DNA from: Natrinema sp. SYSU A 869
Lineage (GTDB): Archaea; Halobacteriota; Halobacteria; Halobacteriales; Natrialbaceae
Direction: 5' to 3'
Assembly: GCF_019879105.1 (NCBI RefSeq)
Contig: NZ_CP082249.1
Location: forward strand, 3,286,001 to 3,350,000
DNA: 64,000 bases
In this document: piece after piece, positions 13,766 through 20,994 of the stretch
Position numbering within the stretch: position 1 is the first letter of the stretch
Layout: each line of letters opens with the position of its first letter
Notes under the pieces: model-generated
What the model was told of the DNA's origin: nothing
Database searches by the model: none
What the model saw: the letters and a program-made list of their open reading frames with translations, nothing else
Translations under genes and position numbers: made by a program

Positions 13766-14230
13766 TTAGAACCAGCCCCAGTCGTCGTCGCTATCCTCGT
13801 CACAGGAGTCGCTTTTGATGGCGTCTGCGAGGTCGCTGACGATTACCTCGGAGACCAACGTGTCGCGGTATCCGTCGATGGGATCGCTGACGTCGATATT
13901 GGTGTAGTTGTCTGCCGGATCACAGTCGACACCCTCGGCACCGACCGCGGTGTCGCCCGTCCCGCCGAAGGCGGCACTGACGGTCCCGTCGTTCTTGGAG
14001 TCGTAGTTTCGCACCTCGCAGGCGTTGTTGAGGCCGTTGTTCACGGGTTGCAACCGGTCTCCGAGCCGTCGGCGGCGGTACCGAGAAGGGCGATGGTCTC
14101 GATTTCGCACCCCCTCGGAGCGTCGCAAGCGCCCACAGGACACAGCGACTCCCAGGGAATGGCCGACCAGCCACACGTTGCCGACACCGTTGGCAAGACG
14201 CTCCTTGATCAATCCAGCTGTCAACCAACC
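13766..14230 (-). pseudogene. decayed paralog of the adjacent Tat-exported hydrolase
   Basis: Fragments in different frames match the downstream half of the hydrolase at 14352-15221 in order: GLIKERLANGVGNVWLVGHSLG, then SRCVLWALATLRGG in a second frame, EIETIALLGTAADGSE in another, then ACEVRNYDSKNDGTVSAAFGG to the Asp-rich end (DDDWGWF). The first half of the gene and the Tat signal are missing. At least two frame changes separate the pieces. This is a tandem duplicate in decay. Confidence 0.75.
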
Positions 14231-14351
14231 GTAACGCGACGCAGCGAATTGGAGCGCAAAAATTGGGTAAGAACCGGGCCTCAGTGAATGCGGGTGGATT
14301 TTAACCACCGCCGATACGGGTCGTGAGACGACGGTGTTCGCTCGCAGGCGT

Positions 14352-15221
14352 TCAGCTCCACCAGCTATCGTCGTCGTCATCGCCGCCGCTATCGTCGCCA
14401 CAGGAACCGCTGTTGATTGCGTCGGCGAGGTCCGATCCAACTGCGGAGTCGCCCAGATACGTCAGGTGACTGCCGACGCTGCCGGTCACGTCGACGTCAG
14501 TGTAGTTCGACGCGGGGCTGCAGCCTGCACCTTCGGTCCCCAGCGCGGTGTCGCCCCAGCCGCCGTAGGCCGAGCCGACCGTCGAGTCGTTCTCGGAGTG
14601 GTAGTTGCGGACCTCGCAGGCGTTGTCGAGGCCGGAATTCCACGGATCGCCACAGATCTCCGAGCCGTCCGCCGCAGTGCCGAGTCCCGCGACGGTCTCG
14701 ATCTCGTAGCCACTACTGAGTTTGGTGGCCGTCCAGTAGACACAGCGGCCGCCGAGCGAGTGCCCGACGAGGCGGACGTTGCCGCCGCCGGCGTCGTAGA
14801 AGTCCTCGATGAGGCCGGCGACGACCTCACCGACGTCCTCGGTATCGGACTCCGCACCGCTGAAGTTGAGATTCGTCGCGGGCCACTCGATCGCGACGGT
14901 CTCGTCGGGCGAGTAGCCGCCGGACTCGAGGGAATCCTGGACGTCCGAGGCCTGACTCGAGACGGTCGTGTCGCCGAACCAGCCGTGGATGAAGATCAGC
15001 AGTTCGTCCGTGACTGGGAGACTGTCGTCAGCGCTCCAGCCGAACAGTCCGTCGTCGACTTCGATCACGTCGGGACCGCCGAACTGTGCGGACGCCGAAC
15101 CGGCTGCAGCGGCCAGCCCTGTGCCGCCGACAATCGTCGTGCCGGCGGTCTTCAGGAGGGTTCGTCGGTCAGTCGTCGATTCGTCCGTCGACCGCTCGTC
15201 TGCATCGTTAGGAGCCACCAT
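14352..15221 (-). CDS. Tat-exported alpha/beta hydrolase
   Basis: The 289-residue protein begins with a twin-arginine signal (TTDRRTLLKTAGTTIVGG, about residues 16-33) ending near ASAQ (about 46). That is the usual route for secreted folded proteins in haloarchaea. The mature part is an alpha/beta hydrolase: LLIFIHGWFGD (oxyanion region, about 75), then the nucleophile elbow LVGHSLGG (Ser about 155). It ends in an acidic, Trp-containing tail (GGDDDDDSWWS). The fold suggests an esterase or lipase, and the substrate is unknown. A degraded copy lies just downstream on the same strand. Confidence 0.85.
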   Translation of the reverse strand: MVAPNDADERSTDESTTDRRTLLKTAGTTIVGGTGLAAAAGSASAQFGGPDVIEVDDGLFGWSADDSLPVTDELLIFIHGWFGDTTVSSQASDVQDSLESGGYSPDETVAIEWPATNLNFSGAESDTEDVGEVVAGLIEDFYDAGGGNVRLVGHSLGGRCVYWTATKLSSGYEIETVAGLGTAADGSEICGDPWNSGLDNACEVRNYHSENDSTVGSAYGGWGDTALGTEGAGCSPASNYTDVDVTGSVGSHLTYLGDSAVGSDLADAINSGSCGDDSGGDDDDDSWWS

Positions 15222-15524
15222 AGTGCGACCTATACTTATGCGTATTGGTGATTGTGTTTTCTTCTTCTATACAGAGTCTGTTTAAGACGCCTCCAATCGA
15301 ATGTTCTCTGCGGGACTGCAGTATCGATGCGCCCAGTAGTCGAATAGGGCTTCGAGCGGTGTGGTCGGATGGATTGTCGTCAGCCGGGGGAGATTCACAC
15401 TCGAGAACGGAGAGCCGTCGGCACGTCCGACGATGGGGGTCGACGGCGGAGCCGGACCGCAGTCGGACAGACACATCGCGGGAACCTGCAAGGTTATACC
15501 GTTCGGGCCGAAAGCGGGGGCGTA
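15222..15524. other. divergent promoter region, hydrolase / pantoate kinase
   Basis: This stretch contains no convincing gene. The part nearest the hydrolase is AT-rich (TATACTTATGCG and a run of T and C), and the part nearest pantoate kinase carries a TATA-like GTTATACC. Confidence 0.5.
15493..15500 (+). promoter_or_regulatory. TATA-like element for pantoate kinase
   Basis: GTTATACC lies 25-32 nt upstream of the ATG at 15525, the spacing expected for a leaderless haloarchaeal transcript. Confidence 0.45.
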
Positions 15525-16352
15525 ATGCGCGAGGAGGCGACGGCGTTCGTCCCCGGACATGTTACGGGATTTTTCAGTGCACACCCGGACGACGACCCGA
15601 CGAAAGCCGGCTCACGGGGAGCGGGACTGACGCTTACAGACGGTGTCAAGGTAACAGTCGAACCGGCGGCAGAGTCAACTATCGTACTCGACGGGACGGA
15701 AGTCGAGATCGATCCGGTGACGACCGTCCTCGAGACGCTCGATGCGAGCGCCCGCGTCGAGGCCGACTCCGATCTTCCGATCGGAGCCGGGTTCGGCGTT
15801 TCGGGAGCGATGGCGCTCGGGACGGCGCTCACGGCGAACCGCGTCTTCGAGCACAAACTCTCCGCGAACGAACTCGTGACGATCGCCCACGGTGCTGAAG
15901 TCCAGGCCGGGACGGGACTCGGTGACGTCGTCGCACAGGCACACGGTGGCGTTCCGATCCGCCTCGAGCCCGGCGGTCCACAGGATAACAAACTCGACGC
16001 GATTCCGTCGCGGGCGCGCGTCGAGTACGTCTCGTTCGGCGAGCTCTCGACAGCCGACGTGCTCTCGGGCGACACCGAGGAGCTGACAGCCGCTGGGAAG
16101 GAGGCACTCGCTCGCGTCGTTGAGGAGCCGACGCTGCTGTCCTTCATGTACGCCTCGCGGCTGTTCGCACGCGACGCTGGCCTGCTCACGGAGCAGGTCA
16201 CCGAGACGATCGCCGAGGTCTCGGAGAACGGCGGGCAGGCGTCGATGGCCATGCTTGGCGAGACCGTCTTCGCGCTCGGAACGGGGCTCTCCGACGCTGG
16301 ATACGAGCCGTCGGTCTGTGCGACGCATCCGGCCGGTGCAGTGTTGAAGTAG
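15525..16352 (+). CDS. pantoate kinase (GHMP family)
   Basis: The 275-residue protein is archaeal pantoate kinase, which makes 4-phosphopantoate on the archaeal route to coenzyme A. It begins MREEATAFVPGHVTGFFSAH, a typical GHMP start. The phosphate-binding loop is LPIGAGFGVSGAMALG (about residues 86-101), followed by AEVQAGTGLGDVVAQAHGG (about 125-143). A C-terminal GHMP motif carries GGQASMAMLGETVFALG. The next enzyme of the path, the phosphopantoate ligase, is encoded at 19631, beyond the 13-repeat gene. Confidence 0.92.
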   Translation: MREEATAFVPGHVTGFFSAHPDDDPTKAGSRGAGLTLTDGVKVTVEPAAESTIVLDGTEVEIDPVTTVLETLDASARVEADSDLPIGAGFGVSGAMALGTALTANRVFEHKLSANELVTIAHGAEVQAGTGLGDVVAQAHGGVPIRLEPGGPQDNKLDAIPSRARVEYVSFGELSTADVLSGDTEELTAAGKEALARVVEEPTLLSFMYASRLFARDAGLLTEQVTETIAEVSENGGQASMAMLGETVFALGTGLSDAGYEPSVCATHPAGAVLK

Positions 16353-16668: not shown

Positions 16669-19584
16669 ATGACTTCACGCACTGACGTTCACCAGCACTT
16701 ATTTCAGCTGTACGAACATTACGTCGGCGAACCAGATTCCAGCAAGGATGTCTACGGCTACTGGCTGTTTATCTTCGGCTATATTGTCGGGGCTGCCGGT
16801 GTCGCGACGTTCGTCATCGGATACGCAGGCGAGGGGAATCCGTACACACTGATCAGAATTTCCGGGGTTACCGCAGCGACCGGACTGACCTTCTGTCTGT
16901 TCGGTATCGTCCTCATGTTACCGGTACGACGGCGAGGGATTCAGGCGAGCGTCGTCGGACTGCTCGTCGCGCTCGCCGGCGTCGGCTTTTTTGGGTGGGC
17001 GTATCCGAACAACTGGCGCAACCTCGGTGTCGACTACAGCGTTCAGGTCATTTCAGTCTATACGCTCGGAATCGGGATCATCGCAGGCGTGACCGCCCTC
17101 GTTCCCGTGCTCACGGGACAGAAAGGCATGTTCGTCGAGGAGGAAGGCGCGACCGAAGAGCCGCCGATCCTCACTGGCGACGCGATGGAGAGCGCCCAGT
17201 TCGCCGTCTTCCGTGACGAGAACGGCGACTGGACGTGGCACGTCCTCCACCTCGAGGCGCTGGCCCAAAGTACGGAAACCGCCGTGACGCGACCGGACGC
17301 GACCGAGGGTATCGAGCGCGTCAAGTCCCAGATCAGCTCTGCGGGGCTGATGGAACTGACAACGTCGGCGTTCCGGCTCTACGAGGATCGAGACGGCACC
17401 TGGCAGTGGACGCTGGCCCGCGACGACGGCTCCATTGTTGGCACCTGTGCCGGCGAGTTCGACCGGCGCGACGGTGCCGAGGAGTCGGTGAGTTTTCTGA
17501 AAGACCGCGGCCCGGATGCCGACGTCATCGAGATCGAGGGAGCCGCGTTCACCTACGCCGAGAAACGCGATCAGTGGCACTGGCAGTTAGTCGACGAGAA
17601 TCACACGCCGATGGCTTCGGGTGACACCGGCCATCCGTCCCAAGAACGCGCCGAGGAGGCCGCTCGAACGTTCACCGACCGATTCGACCGGGCGCGACTG
17701 CTCGACATCGAACACGTCGGCGTCGAACTCTGCGAGCGGGTCGATGGCTGGACTTGGCGGTTCGTCGACGCTGACGACGACGTCATCGCCACTAGTGTCG
17801 TCGAGTTCGACTCCCGGCGCGACGCCGAGAAGGCCGCCGACGCCTTGCTCCCGGCACTCGAGTCGGCGTCGATCACCATGGCCGGCGAACCGACCTACGA
17901 ACTCTACGAGTCGGGCGAGGAATGGCGCTACCGGCTCGTCGACGAAAATGAGCACGTCGTCGCGCGGAGCCCTGAGGGGGCTGCCGGACAGGACGGGGTC
18001 GAGGAGTGGACCGACCGGTTCCGTGACGACGCACTCAATTCGGACGTCGTCGAGATCGACGATGCGGAATACGAGGTCTATCCCGCGCCGGAGACTGCGA
18101 GTGCTGTGGAATCCGACGGCGCACCGGCCGACGAGGACGACACTCTCCCGACGCCGCTCGAGGAACCCGAGCCGGCCGCGGACGGCGGGACCACGACGGA
18201 CGACGCGACGGCGGACGACACCGGTCCGTGGCACTGGCGGCTCGTCACCGACGACCGCGAGGTCGTCGCCGCGAGCACGGAACCCCACGCCGACGCCGCG
18301 GCAGCGACGACGGCGATCGAGCGGGTTCGCCAGCAGGCCAGCGAGGCCGACCTCATCGAGTTCGAGAACGCCGCCTTTCAGGTCTACGAGGCCGACTCCG
18401 GCGAATGGCGCTGGCGGCTCATCGACGAGGACGGCAACGTCCTCGCTGACAGCGGCGAGGAACACACCTCCCGTCGGGAGGCCGCCGAGGCGATGATGAC
18501 GCTCAAAGAGCAGGCACCCGACGCCGAGTTGCTCGAGATCGAAACCGCCGCGTTCGAGCTGTTCGTCGACGAGGACGACGAGTGGGGCTGGCGGCTGATC
18601 GACGAGGCCGGCAAACTCGTCGCCGAGGACCCGGCGACCCATCCGACCCGCGGTGCGGCGCGCCAGGCGATGAACCGCCTGCTCGAGTATCTCGACGCTG
18701 ACGTGCGGACGATGGACCGTGCCGTCTTCCAGCCGTACGCGACCGAGGACTGGCACTGGCGGTTCGTCATGCCCTCCGGCGAGACGGTCGCCGTCGATGA
18801 CGAGGGCTACCCGACCCGTGACGAACTGATCGACAGTCTCGAGGGCGTGCGCGACGCTGCTGCTTCGGCCCGTCGCTCCGCGATCGGCGACGTATCCGTG
18901 CAACTGTATGGCAACGGCGAGTGGCACTTCCGGCTGCTCGATCGTGATCGAGAGGAGATCGCCGACTCGAACGTCTCCTACGACGACCGCAAGGCAGCGA
19001 TGGCCGGCGTTGAGGAGATTCAGTTACATGCGACCGACGCACCGATCTTTGCGATCGACGAGGCTGCCATCCGCGTCGACGGGTCGGACGGCTGGTCCTG
19101 GGAACTCGTCGACCGCGATCGCGAGGTGATCGCCAACGGGGTCGGTGCTGCCACGAGCAAGGCCGACCTGCTCGACGTGATCGACGACGTCCGCCGGCTC
19201 GCACCGATGGCCGGACGCGTCGACTTCGACGTCGCCTCCTTCGAACTCGTCGCCGATGAGGACGATCACTGGCGCTGGCGGCTCATCGACGAAGGCGGTC
19301 AGACCGTTGCGACCGGCTCCGAAACGTACGACACGACCGAGGCCGCGCGCGCAGCACTCGCGGACGTCCGTGATCTCATCGAATCGGCGAGCATCCTCGA
19401 GATTGACAGCGTCTCGTTCGAGCTACACACCGCAGAGGACGGCTGGGTCTGGCAGCTGATCGACGAGTACGGCACGACGATGGCGGAGAGCACGCAGACC
19501 TACGCGAACCGCACGGATGCCCGCGAGGCGATGAACGACGTGAAGGCGCAGGCACCCGACGGCTGGATCACCTTCACAGAATAG
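16669..19584 (+). CDS. membrane protein with 13 tandem YegP/DUF1508-like repeats
   Basis: The 971-residue protein has four N-terminal membrane helices (about 25-50, 57-83, 90-110, 122-148), then a long soluble part made of 13 repeats of about 58 residues (about 178-971). Each repeat reads roughly F-x-[VL]-Y-x-[DE]-x-x-x-x-W-x-W-R-L-[IV]-D-[ED]-x-[GD]-x-x-[IV]-A-x-S, then a helix, and ends in ADLIEI-like residues. This matches the YegP/DUF1508 domain, which normally occurs once or twice per protein. An acidic Thr/Asp-rich insert interrupts repeat 6. Function is unknown. The repeats probably face the cytoplasm or exterior as a stacked rod. Neighbours are CoA synthesis genes. Confidence 0.85.
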   Translation: MTSRTDVHQHLFQLYEHYVGEPDSSKDVYGYWLFIFGYIVGAAGVATFVIGYAGEGNPYTLIRISGVTAATGLTFCLFGIVLMLPVRRRGIQASVVGLLVALAGVGFFGWAYPNNWRNLGVDYSVQVISVYTLGIGIIAGVTALVPVLTGQKGMFVEEEGATEEPPILTGDAMESAQFAVFRDENGDWTWHVLHLEALAQSTETAVTRPDATEGIERVKSQISSAGLMELTTSAFRLYEDRDGTWQWTLARDDGSIVGTCAGEFDRRDGAEESVSFLKDRGPDADVIEIEGAAFTYAEKRDQWHWQLVDENHTPMASGDTGHPSQERAEEAARTFTDRFDRARLLDIEHVGVELCERVDGWTWRFVDADDDVIATSVVEFDSRRDAEKAADALLPALESASITMAGEPTYELYESGEEWRYRLVDENEHVVARSPEGAAGQDGVEEWTDRFRDDALNSDVVEIDDAEYEVYPAPETASAVESDGAPADEDDTLPTPLEEPEPAADGGTTTDDATADDTGPWHWRLVTDDREVVAASTEPHADAAAATTAIERVRQQASEADLIEFENAAFQVYEADSGEWRWRLIDEDGNVLADSGEEHTSRREAAEAMMTLKEQAPDAELLEIETAAFELFVDEDDEWGWRLIDEAGKLVAEDPATHPTRGAARQAMNRLLEYLDADVRTMDRAVFQPYATEDWHWRFVMPSGETVAVDDEGYPTRDELIDSLEGVRDAAASARRSAIGDVSVQLYGNGEWHFRLLDRDREEIADSNVSYDDRKAAMAGVEEIQLHATDAPIFAIDEAAIRVDGSDGWSWELVDRDREVIANGVGAATSKADLLDVIDDVRRLAPMAGRVDFDVASFELVADEDDHWRWRLIDEGGQTVATGSETYDTTEAARAALADVRDLIESASILEIDSVSFELHTAEDGWVWQLIDEYGTTMAESTQTYANRTDAREAMNDVKAQAPDGWITFTE

Positions 19585-19630: not shown

Positions 19631-20410
19631 GTGAGCGACTATGACAGCGTCTCCGCCGACGTTGAGCACGAGGAGGAGATTCCAGAGGACCACCCGAGAT
19701 ACCAGGACCTGCTCACTCGCCACCGAATCGAGCGGGGCGTCGAGAAGGGGATCACGCACCTCCAGGGGATGCACGCCGAGGGACGGGGCAGCGCGTTCGA
19801 CTACCTGCTGGGCGAGGAGACGATTCCGAGCGCCGACGACGCGGAACGGGCCGCCGCGGCACACCTCCTGCTCGCCGATCACCCCGTGCTCTCGATCAAC
19901 GGCAACGTCGCGGCGCTGGTCCCCGGCGAAATGGCCGATCTCGCCGACACTGTCGACGCCGCCCTCGAGGTCAACCTCTTCAATCGAACGCCCGAGCGGA
20001 TTCAGGCTATCGCCGACCACCTCCGAGAACACGGTGCGAACGAGGTCAAGGGACTCGAGGCCGACGCGCACATTCCGAACCTCGACCATGAGCGTTCGAA
20101 GGTCGACGCCGACGGCATCTACGAGGCCGACGTGGTGCTCGTGCCCCTCGAGGACGGCGACCGCGCCGAGGCGCTCGACGAGATGGGCAAGACCGAGATC
20201 GTGATCGACCTCAACCCGCTGTCGCGCTCGCCGCAGGTGGCCGACGTGCCGATCGTCGACAACATTATCCGCGCCGTGCCGACCATCACCGAGCACGCGC
20301 GGGATCTGGCGGATGCCAACGAAGACGAGCTGCGGGCGATTATCGAGACCTTCGACCGGGAGCGGGCGCTCGAGGCGGCCGAAGAGCGGATCCGCTCGGG
20401 CGACCTCTAA
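19631..20410 (+). CDS. 4-phosphopantoate-beta-alanine ligase
   Basis: This 259-residue protein matches archaeal phosphopantothenate synthetase, which joins 4-phosphopantoate and beta-alanine using ATP. Characteristic segments are HPRYQDLLTRHRIERGVEKGI (about 20-40), LGEETIPSAD, LSINGNVAAL (about 88-97), VNLFNRTPERI (about 117) and IDLNPLSRSPQVADVPIVDN (about 197-216). The start is a GTG at 19631, with no nearby in-frame ATG. Together with pantoate kinase it replaces the bacterial PanC-CoaA pair. Confidence 0.93.
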   Translation: MSDYDSVSADVEHEEEIPEDHPRYQDLLTRHRIERGVEKGITHLQGMHAEGRGSAFDYLLGEETIPSADDAERAAAAHLLLADHPVLSINGNVAALVPGEMADLADTVDAALEVNLFNRTPERIQAIADHLREHGANEVKGLEADAHIPNLDHERSKVDADGIYEADVVLVPLEDGDRAEALDEMGKTEIVIDLNPLSRSPQVADVPIVDNIIRAVPTITEHARDLADANEDELRAIIETFDRERALEAAEERIRSGDL

Positions 20411-20706: not shown

Positions 20707-20994
20707 ATGAGTGAACCGAGCGATTCGGCGGACGAAACCGTCGTGCTGCGGCGGCAGCTGAACACTGAGGAGGGTGATACGACGATTCAACTCGTCGAAA
20801 TCATCGCCGAGCTTGACGACAGGGAGCCGACGGAGCTCTCACCGCTCTATCGCTCCGTCGATAGCCTCATCTCCGACCTCTTCGGTTCCCCGCCGCCAAC
20901 CCATGTCGATGCGAACCTCGTATTCTCCTATCATGGATACCGGGTCCACGTCCAGCAGGACGGGATGACGACGTTCCGCGAACTGTCGGGATAG
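20707..20994 (+). CDS. HalOD1-type small protein
   Basis: This 95-residue acidic protein has the pattern of the haloarchaeal HalOD1 output domain: ELSPLYRSVDSLISDLFG (about 48-65), then VFSYHGYRVHVQQDGMTTF (about 75-93). HalOD1 domains are thought to act as output modules of signalling systems. No sensor lies next to this one. The ATG at 20707 gives a short acidic leader before the domain. Confidence 0.75.
   Translation: MSEPSDSADETVVLRRQLNTEEGDTTIQLVEIIAELDDREPTELSPLYRSVDSLISDLFGSPPPTHVDANLVFSYHGYRVHVQQDGMTTFRELSG

Follow-up and report, generated by a model that had tools for sequence, protein, structure and literature searches.

What does a membrane protein with thirteen copies of one small domain do between two genes of coenzyme A (CoA) synthesis? 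The question is raised by a 64,000-nt stretch of the Natrinema sp. SYSU A 869 genome (NZ_CP082249.1, positions 3,286,001-3,350,000, forward strand), here called the window, in which a gene on the plus strand at 16669-19584 encodes a 971-residue protein made up of a hydrophobic N-terminal segment and a long array of YegP/DUF1508-like units. The architecture is well supported by profile matches; for the function of the array we infer, tentatively and with somewhat less than even confidence, an arm of set length that would be tethered to the membrane and serve as a scaffold in the cytoplasm, with the central unit 7 as its sole docking unit.

A first-pass annotation of the locus had described a four-helix membrane segment followed by 13 tandem units, and profile searches agree. 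Residues 10-153 match DUF7139 (PF23600) above the cut-off (E 9.6e-42; 142.6 bits against 30) and hydropathy places four hydrophobic segments in the protein at approximately residues 28-54, 60-88, 89-113 and 121-151. The rest of the protein after DUF7139 is covered in Pfam by DUF1508 (PF07411; E 2.1e-84; 277.7 bits against a cut-off of 22), as the earlier assignment of the units had implied. The NCBIfam model of HVO_2922, NF041908, matches 13 stretches (E 4.2e-94), the score of 308.5 bits against a cut-off of 90 being the sum over all 13. That model describes a small free-standing single unit, and the protein is not classed as HVO_2922 itself because it has 971 residues and a membrane domain. 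A unit profile built in this analysis finds 13 units at i-E<0.1, against zero when the array was shuffled 200 times. A W-x-W-R-L-I/V-D core had also been proposed for most units; in the translation W-x-[W/Y/F] is present in all 13, so the aromatic part stands, but the arginine follows directly in only eight and the complete string occurs in three. The start codon is backed by a methionine at the identical position in 16 of 17 aligned relatives, the remaining one (L045) beginning within the gene at a contig end; the alignment comprised 17 of 18 loci, with the frameshifted L049 left out. The features of the gene, with units placed by the unit profile unless stated otherwise, are:

16669-19584, plus strand: whole repeat protein, 971 residues (translation; start aligned with relatives)
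16696-17127, plus strand: DUF7139, putative four-helix membrane anchor, residues 10-153 (PF23600, hydropathy, loop charges)
17188-17349, plus strand: unit 1
17362-17529, plus strand: unit 2
17536-17700, plus strand: unit 3
17710-17874, plus strand: unit 4
17884-18048, plus strand: unit 5
18091-18219, plus strand: acidic insertion of low complexity within hairpin 1 of unit 6, residues ~475-517 (alignment, spacing, high ratio of nonsynonymous to synonymous substitution, dN/dS)
18211-18357, plus strand: unit 6, part past the insertion
18364-18534, plus strand: unit 7, central and most conserved (conservation, loop residues, dN/dS)
18448-18456, plus strand: D594-S595-G596, canonical loop, kept in unit 7 only (loop-residue count)
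18541-18696, plus strand: unit 8
18715-18876, plus strand: unit 9
18886-19050, plus strand: unit 10
19057-19221, plus strand: unit 11
19228-19398, plus strand: unit 12
19405-19569, plus strand: unit 13

The insertion in unit 6 is about 43 residues long, sits between the first strand and the W-x-W core, and is missing from some other families in the alignment.

The number of units is constant. All 69 intact long open reading frames (ORFs) among the matches listed have 13 units by the unit profile, in line with the earlier remark that the copy number on a membrane anchor is unusual. These ORFs contain duplicates, with 63 proteins of the main type reduced to 46 representatives by a 90% identity filter; the loci were picked by frame length, and less common unit numbers could exist besides 13 and 5. 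The exceptions to 13 are the diverged paralog L136, in which 12 units were found, the frameshifted L049 and L121 with 5+9 units, and the remnant L144. Both frameshifts (L049:4914-7992 in Natrinema thermotolerans DSM 11552 and L121:1498-4576 in genome G007) lie near the unit 5/6 insertion and may be a true break or a sequencing error.

Each position in the array also has an identity of its own. When 36 proteins of the window's family were used to build one profile per unit position, 196 of the 221 units in 17 proteins of other families matched their own position best, as did 64 of 65 units in the diverged paralog (five paralog rows with 13 units), and within an array the units are strongly unlike each other (mean identity 0.14-0.42). 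Since unit i in other families best matches position i, the array is old and fixed. It is not peculiar to this strain, nor did it arise by random expansion.

Unit 7 stands out among the thirteen. Its mean between-family identity over the 46 representatives is 0.66, against 0.32-0.51 for the others. The canonical D-S-G that follows the third strand is found in unit 7 of 64 of the 68 proteins and at none of the other 12 positions; the count omits L140, where 14 units appeared, weakly scored. D-S-G is likewise present in all 25 single-unit ORFs examined, which were chosen as the best matches of the HVO_2922 model and are hence biased towards the motif. Compared with four relatives, dN/dS for the gene as a whole is 0.13-0.23, against 0.03-0.13 in unit 7; it is high for the insertion in unit 6, and at the level of sequence these ratios show purifying selection on the gene.

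The charges around the hydrophobic segments bear on which side of the membrane the array lies. According to the positive-inside rule, positively charged ends and loops face the cytoplasm. The 13-unit class, with 63 proteins, has on average 2.60 positive charges in the N-terminal tail, 0.03 in loop 1, 2.70 in loop 2, 0.83 in loop 3 and 1.62 in the C-terminal tail; they are concentrated on the N-terminal tail and the loop between transmembrane segments 2 and 3 and sparse on the other two loops. The 5-unit and unit-less DUF7139 classes agree in this pattern (63, 25 and 36 proteins across the three classes). Because of the positive charges on the N-terminal tail and the second loop, both ends of the protein, array included, are predicted to be cytoplasmic. 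The prediction thus retains the four-segment anchor of the first-pass annotation, while the array is placed inside the cell and not at its surface.

Spacing within the array is regular, the median core-to-core distance in 13-unit proteins being 56-59 residues at 11 of the 12 junctions and 94 at 5→6, where 48 of 68 proteins have an insertion. A full-length AlphaFold2 model shows helices followed by beta-beta-beta-alpha units, and was set aside as a guide to overall shape (predicted local distance difference test, pLDDT, 54; predicted template modelling score, pTM, 0.22). The same unit fold appears in a model of units 9-13 (pLDDT 67, pTM 0.35), in which, within the limits of that low pTM, units 11-12 match SO3888 (Z 10.9 over 103 residues, root-mean-square deviation, rmsd, 2.9) and YegP (Z 10.7), and unit 13 matches HVO_2922 (Z 8.4); the units thus probably have the DUF1508 fold. 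In SCOP, the YegP fold is described as one sheet formed by two units that swap strands. The five-unit model also matches All3315 (Z 6.0, rmsd 15.6), which Foldseek ranks first (E 1.7e-5). The following row has Z 4.1, and from this value downwards the rows, among them propellers and HIV RT, were treated as background, which leaves All3315 as the sole solved match above background besides YegP, SO3888 and HVO_2922.

DUF7139 itself is widespread, occurring in 60 of the 61 genomes searched (the strain's own and 60 relatives) in one to four copies each, with units on some copies only. The strain's own genome has two unit-less paralogs, L004:907-1911 (minus strand) and L002:1486-2397 (plus strand), one ending in the cysteine-rich DUF7140 and the other in an unnamed tail. 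When 145 sampled genomes of the class were searched with the whole protein, the long form, defined by near-full coverage and a frame of ~930-1050 residues or by two adjoining pieces, was found in 37, counting the frameshifted G007, and 108 were without it. The window's family has it in 26 of 37 genomes; the others belong to families f4, f7 and f10, and a separate set of relatives adds f3, f8 and f16. A tree of 47 arrays follows mainly the families, with two changes each for f4 and f7 and some long branches.

Where DUF7139 is linked to a shorter array, the number of units is 5, as seen in 23 ORFs and in 8 further ones fetched as a check, among the matches listed. Their units resemble position 7, the canonical type, most (100 of 115 best matches), and most of them retain the canonical loop residues. 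The core-to-core distance is exactly 59 residues for both 2→3 and 4→5 in 22 of 22 proteins, while it ranges over 65-98 at 1→2 and 50-82 at 3→4 (L096, with a sixth weak unit, was left out of the 23); because two junctions are constant and two vary, the short form reads as 1+(2,3)+(4,5). In two genomes of one genus (L152:1111-2931 and L181:1521-3398) a stop splits the 5-unit protein 3+2 at the flexible 3/4 junction, and in L102 the five units are in an ORF adjoining a separate DUF7139 ORF. Apart from the paralog, ORFs without DUF7139 among the matches listed have one, two or once four units, the last being a 770-residue frame (L186:915-3227, genome G070) that represents a further architecture. 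Relatives on plasmids carry the annotation 'DUF1508 domain-containing protein'. In the paralog L132-L137, DUF7139 is no longer recognisable and another hydrophobic N-terminal segment takes its place. Because this paralog exchanged DUF7139 yet kept its 13 units, tethering and unit number seem to matter more than which anchor is used.

Among known proteins, the closest by profile is the HVO_2922 family, to which the array units belong (nuclear magnetic resonance structure 6q2z; E 4e-10 for unit 7); HVO_2922 is one free unit of 60 residues, whereas here 13 follow a membrane anchor and 12 of them lack the canonical D-S-G. The PDB entry 6q2z has two chains. HVO_2922 is listed in PMC12175516 with DNA-repair genes as induced by perchlorate, and PMC13373217 gives 57 cases of yegP-like genes after capK-capS. 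YegP and SO3888 (2k8e, 2k49) share the predicted fold of the units but have two units, the cores of E. coli YegP being 51 residues apart against ~58 here, and no counterpart of the membrane domain. The 5-unit haloarchaeal proteins have the anchor and unit family in common with the 13-unit protein, but their units are mostly near-canonical and, in the five loci checked (L094, L096, L098, L099 and L102), the CoA genes do not adjoin. All3315 is Cis12 of the Anabaena contractile injection system (7b5h), in which, according to the sections of PMC8894136 on this protein, residues 610-1,100 form an extension absent from AFP and the extra domain is a wide connector to the thylakoid membrane. The array would share with Cis12 a multi-unit structural match and contact with a membrane; Cis12 differs in being part of a baseplate protein, with no predicted transmembrane domains and a weak sequence match. 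In PDB 7b5h, chain AD, residues ~680-1226, the membrane-contacting extension resembles several YegP-type units in a row; searching the text of PMC8894136 gave no hit for "YegP".

In the model that we tentatively favour, the four-helix DUF7139 anchor would tether the array to the membrane, and from there a regular arm of set length would extend into the cytoplasm, formed by neighbouring units of the YegP/HVO_2922 type that pack in the manner of YegP-like modules. Twelve of the units, the divergent ones, would be structural. Unit 7 would be the only working site, at which a cytoplasmic partner docks a fixed distance away from the membrane; the partner may be another chain, a free HVO_2922-type protein or some other protein. 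The protein would have no part in CoA synthesis despite its location between two CoA genes. Consistent with this scaffold are the constant number, positional identity, regular spacing, conservation of unit 7, loop charges, the exchange of the anchor in the paralog and the fold matches, and the Cis12 extension, described in the same sections of PMC8894136 as linking a cytoplasmic machine to the membrane, offers a precedent. Several results weigh against it. The four proteins that lack D-S-G in unit 7 are all paralogs, the motif being lost in four of the five scored. Low dN/dS against the four relatives is also seen in unit 8 (0.03-0.05), unit 13 (0.03-0.11) and unit 2 (0.02-0.08), which are thus strongly conserved too, and unit 7 may not be the sole important one. 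Both structure models are weak, leaving the shape of the arm and the packing of its units to inference, and the 13-unit array gives no pairing signal, with no two-unit periodicity of similarity (permutation p 0.94). The sequence match to Cis12 is weak with three queries (E 0.59, 0.0036 and 0.061), and the full-length profile gives none.

The neighbouring genes of the window were identified by profile as follows:

15519-16352, plus strand: pantoate kinase (PoK), upstream neighbour (GHMP kinase in Pfam; NCBIfam pantoate kinase E 8.3e-55, below the model cut-off)
19631-20410, plus strand: 4-phosphopantoate--beta-alanine ligase (PPS), starting 46 bp past the repeat gene (PF02006 E 3.1e-75; NF041123 E 6.6e-93)

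The best match of PoK is the methanogen pantoate-kinase model. The location between these two genes, all on one strand, is as first annotated, and the order is conserved outside the strain. With neighbours required to be on the same strand and within 12 kb, 29 of the 37 long-form genomes, from several families, have PoK, the repeat gene and PPS, one has PoK and the repeat gene, three have the repeat gene and PPS, and four, all of f4, have neither neighbour. PoK was found in all 145 genomes and PPS in 142. Among the 108 genomes without the long form, PoK and PPS are within 400 bp of each other in 60, including the same-genus G001, G009, G014 and G020, and the remaining 48 have wider gaps, separate locations or no PPS match. 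In G011 a regulator and a methyltransferase, named by eye, lie between PoK and PPS and the repeat gene is absent; a similar pair follows the repeat gene in L050, and the arrangement looks like a clean loss of the gene. In L144:1404-2066 (G163) a broken remnant with a DUF7139 piece and two units is found between PoK and PPS, and in L148:1600-3021 (G101) an MFS-type transporter, named from its sequence and not by profile, occupies the same gap, which thus takes different genes. Elsewhere in the window, a small ORF at 20713-20994, between PPS and tyrosyl-tRNA synthetase, has a sub-threshold match to the disk-determining factor DdfA (40.7 bits, cut-off 70), and two adjoining similar ORFs on the minus strand at 13766-15221 look by eye like a secreted protein of the lipase type and a shorter version of it.

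The position of the gene invites the explanation that the protein is a scaffold or regulator of CoA synthesis holding PoK and PPS at the membrane, to which the recurrent gene order and the ligase beginning just past the repeat gene would point. An obligate partner would be present wherever PoK and PPS are, and the long gene is missing from 108 of 145 genomes, 60 of them with adjacent PoK and PPS; a role in CoA synthesis is therefore unlikely. The four genomes with the gene located elsewhere and the other occupants of the gap in G011 and G101 likewise count against it, and the CoA scaffold, weakened as a candidate by these absences, is judged improbable. The rod on the surface or in a periplasm-like space that the first-pass annotation proposed would suit a long acidic array that comes after four hydrophobic segments, but the charge pattern of all three DUF7139 classes predicts the opposite side, and the DUF7140 of the strain's own other DUF7139 protein, metal-site-like by eye, would suit the cytoplasm as well; such a rod is very improbable. 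The same annotation had alternatively suggested a multivalent ligand-binding array; in such an array one and the same ligand would be bound by every unit. The membership of all thirteen units in one family and the canonical loop residues in most units of the 5-unit relatives speak for it; it is nevertheless disfavoured, and we consider it quite improbable, because the canonical D-S-G survives only in unit 7, the most conserved one, whereas the other twelve, mutually divergent yet conserved by position, have lost it.

A signalling receptor, in which DUF7139 would sense the membrane and the array relay its state to unit 7, perhaps via dimerisation of an unpaired unit, is a further explanation that we regard as rather unlikely. 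The unit number is odd in both DUF7139-linked classes, the 5-unit spacing leaves one unit unpaired, the gene split between units 3 and 4 and the two chains of 6q2z would fit, but the 13-unit array gives no parity signal and the Pfam and NCBIfam searches gave no signalling domain. A docking adaptor for a contractile injection system, similar to the Cis12 extension, is suggested by the fold match to All3315 and by the co-occurrence of the gene with a sheath gene above expectation over the 145 genomes (the gene is present in 13 of the 26 genomes with a sheath gene and in 24 of the 119 without, Fisher p 0.003). The association is gone within the window's family (12 of 18 with a sheath gene and 14 of 19 without, p 0.73), which weakened this candidate, and with no sheath match in 24 of the 37 genomes with the gene we consider it extremely improbable. 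A role in anti-phage defence was rejected, with no PADLOC family matched at E<=0.01; matches in PHROGs were to families of unknown function only.

Both domains are already known as named families. A multi-unit DUF1508 membrane protein was not found by title or abstract opening in open-licence PubMed Central, nor were the constant count of 13, the 6+1+6 layout, the pairing in the 5-unit form or the anchor replacement.

Several structures have been solved for the widespread YegP/DUF1508 family, to which no function has been assigned. Shedding of the canonical loop by twelve units and its retention in the central one would distinguish what the fold contributes as structure from where it does its work, and unit 7 singles out D594-S595-G596 as the residues concerned. 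It is unusual for tandem repeats to keep to exactly 13 units, or to 5 in the sister class, across much of an archaeal class, and this constancy suggests a length-dependent job at the archaeal membrane. In its boldest form, possible but somewhat unlikely, the array would be a counted scaffold, a 6+1+6 ruler presenting one canonical YegP-type docking site at a set cytoplasmic reach; it would then represent a new kind of haloarchaeal scaffold, and YegP-type units may be general building blocks of membrane-contacting arms, that of Cis12 included.

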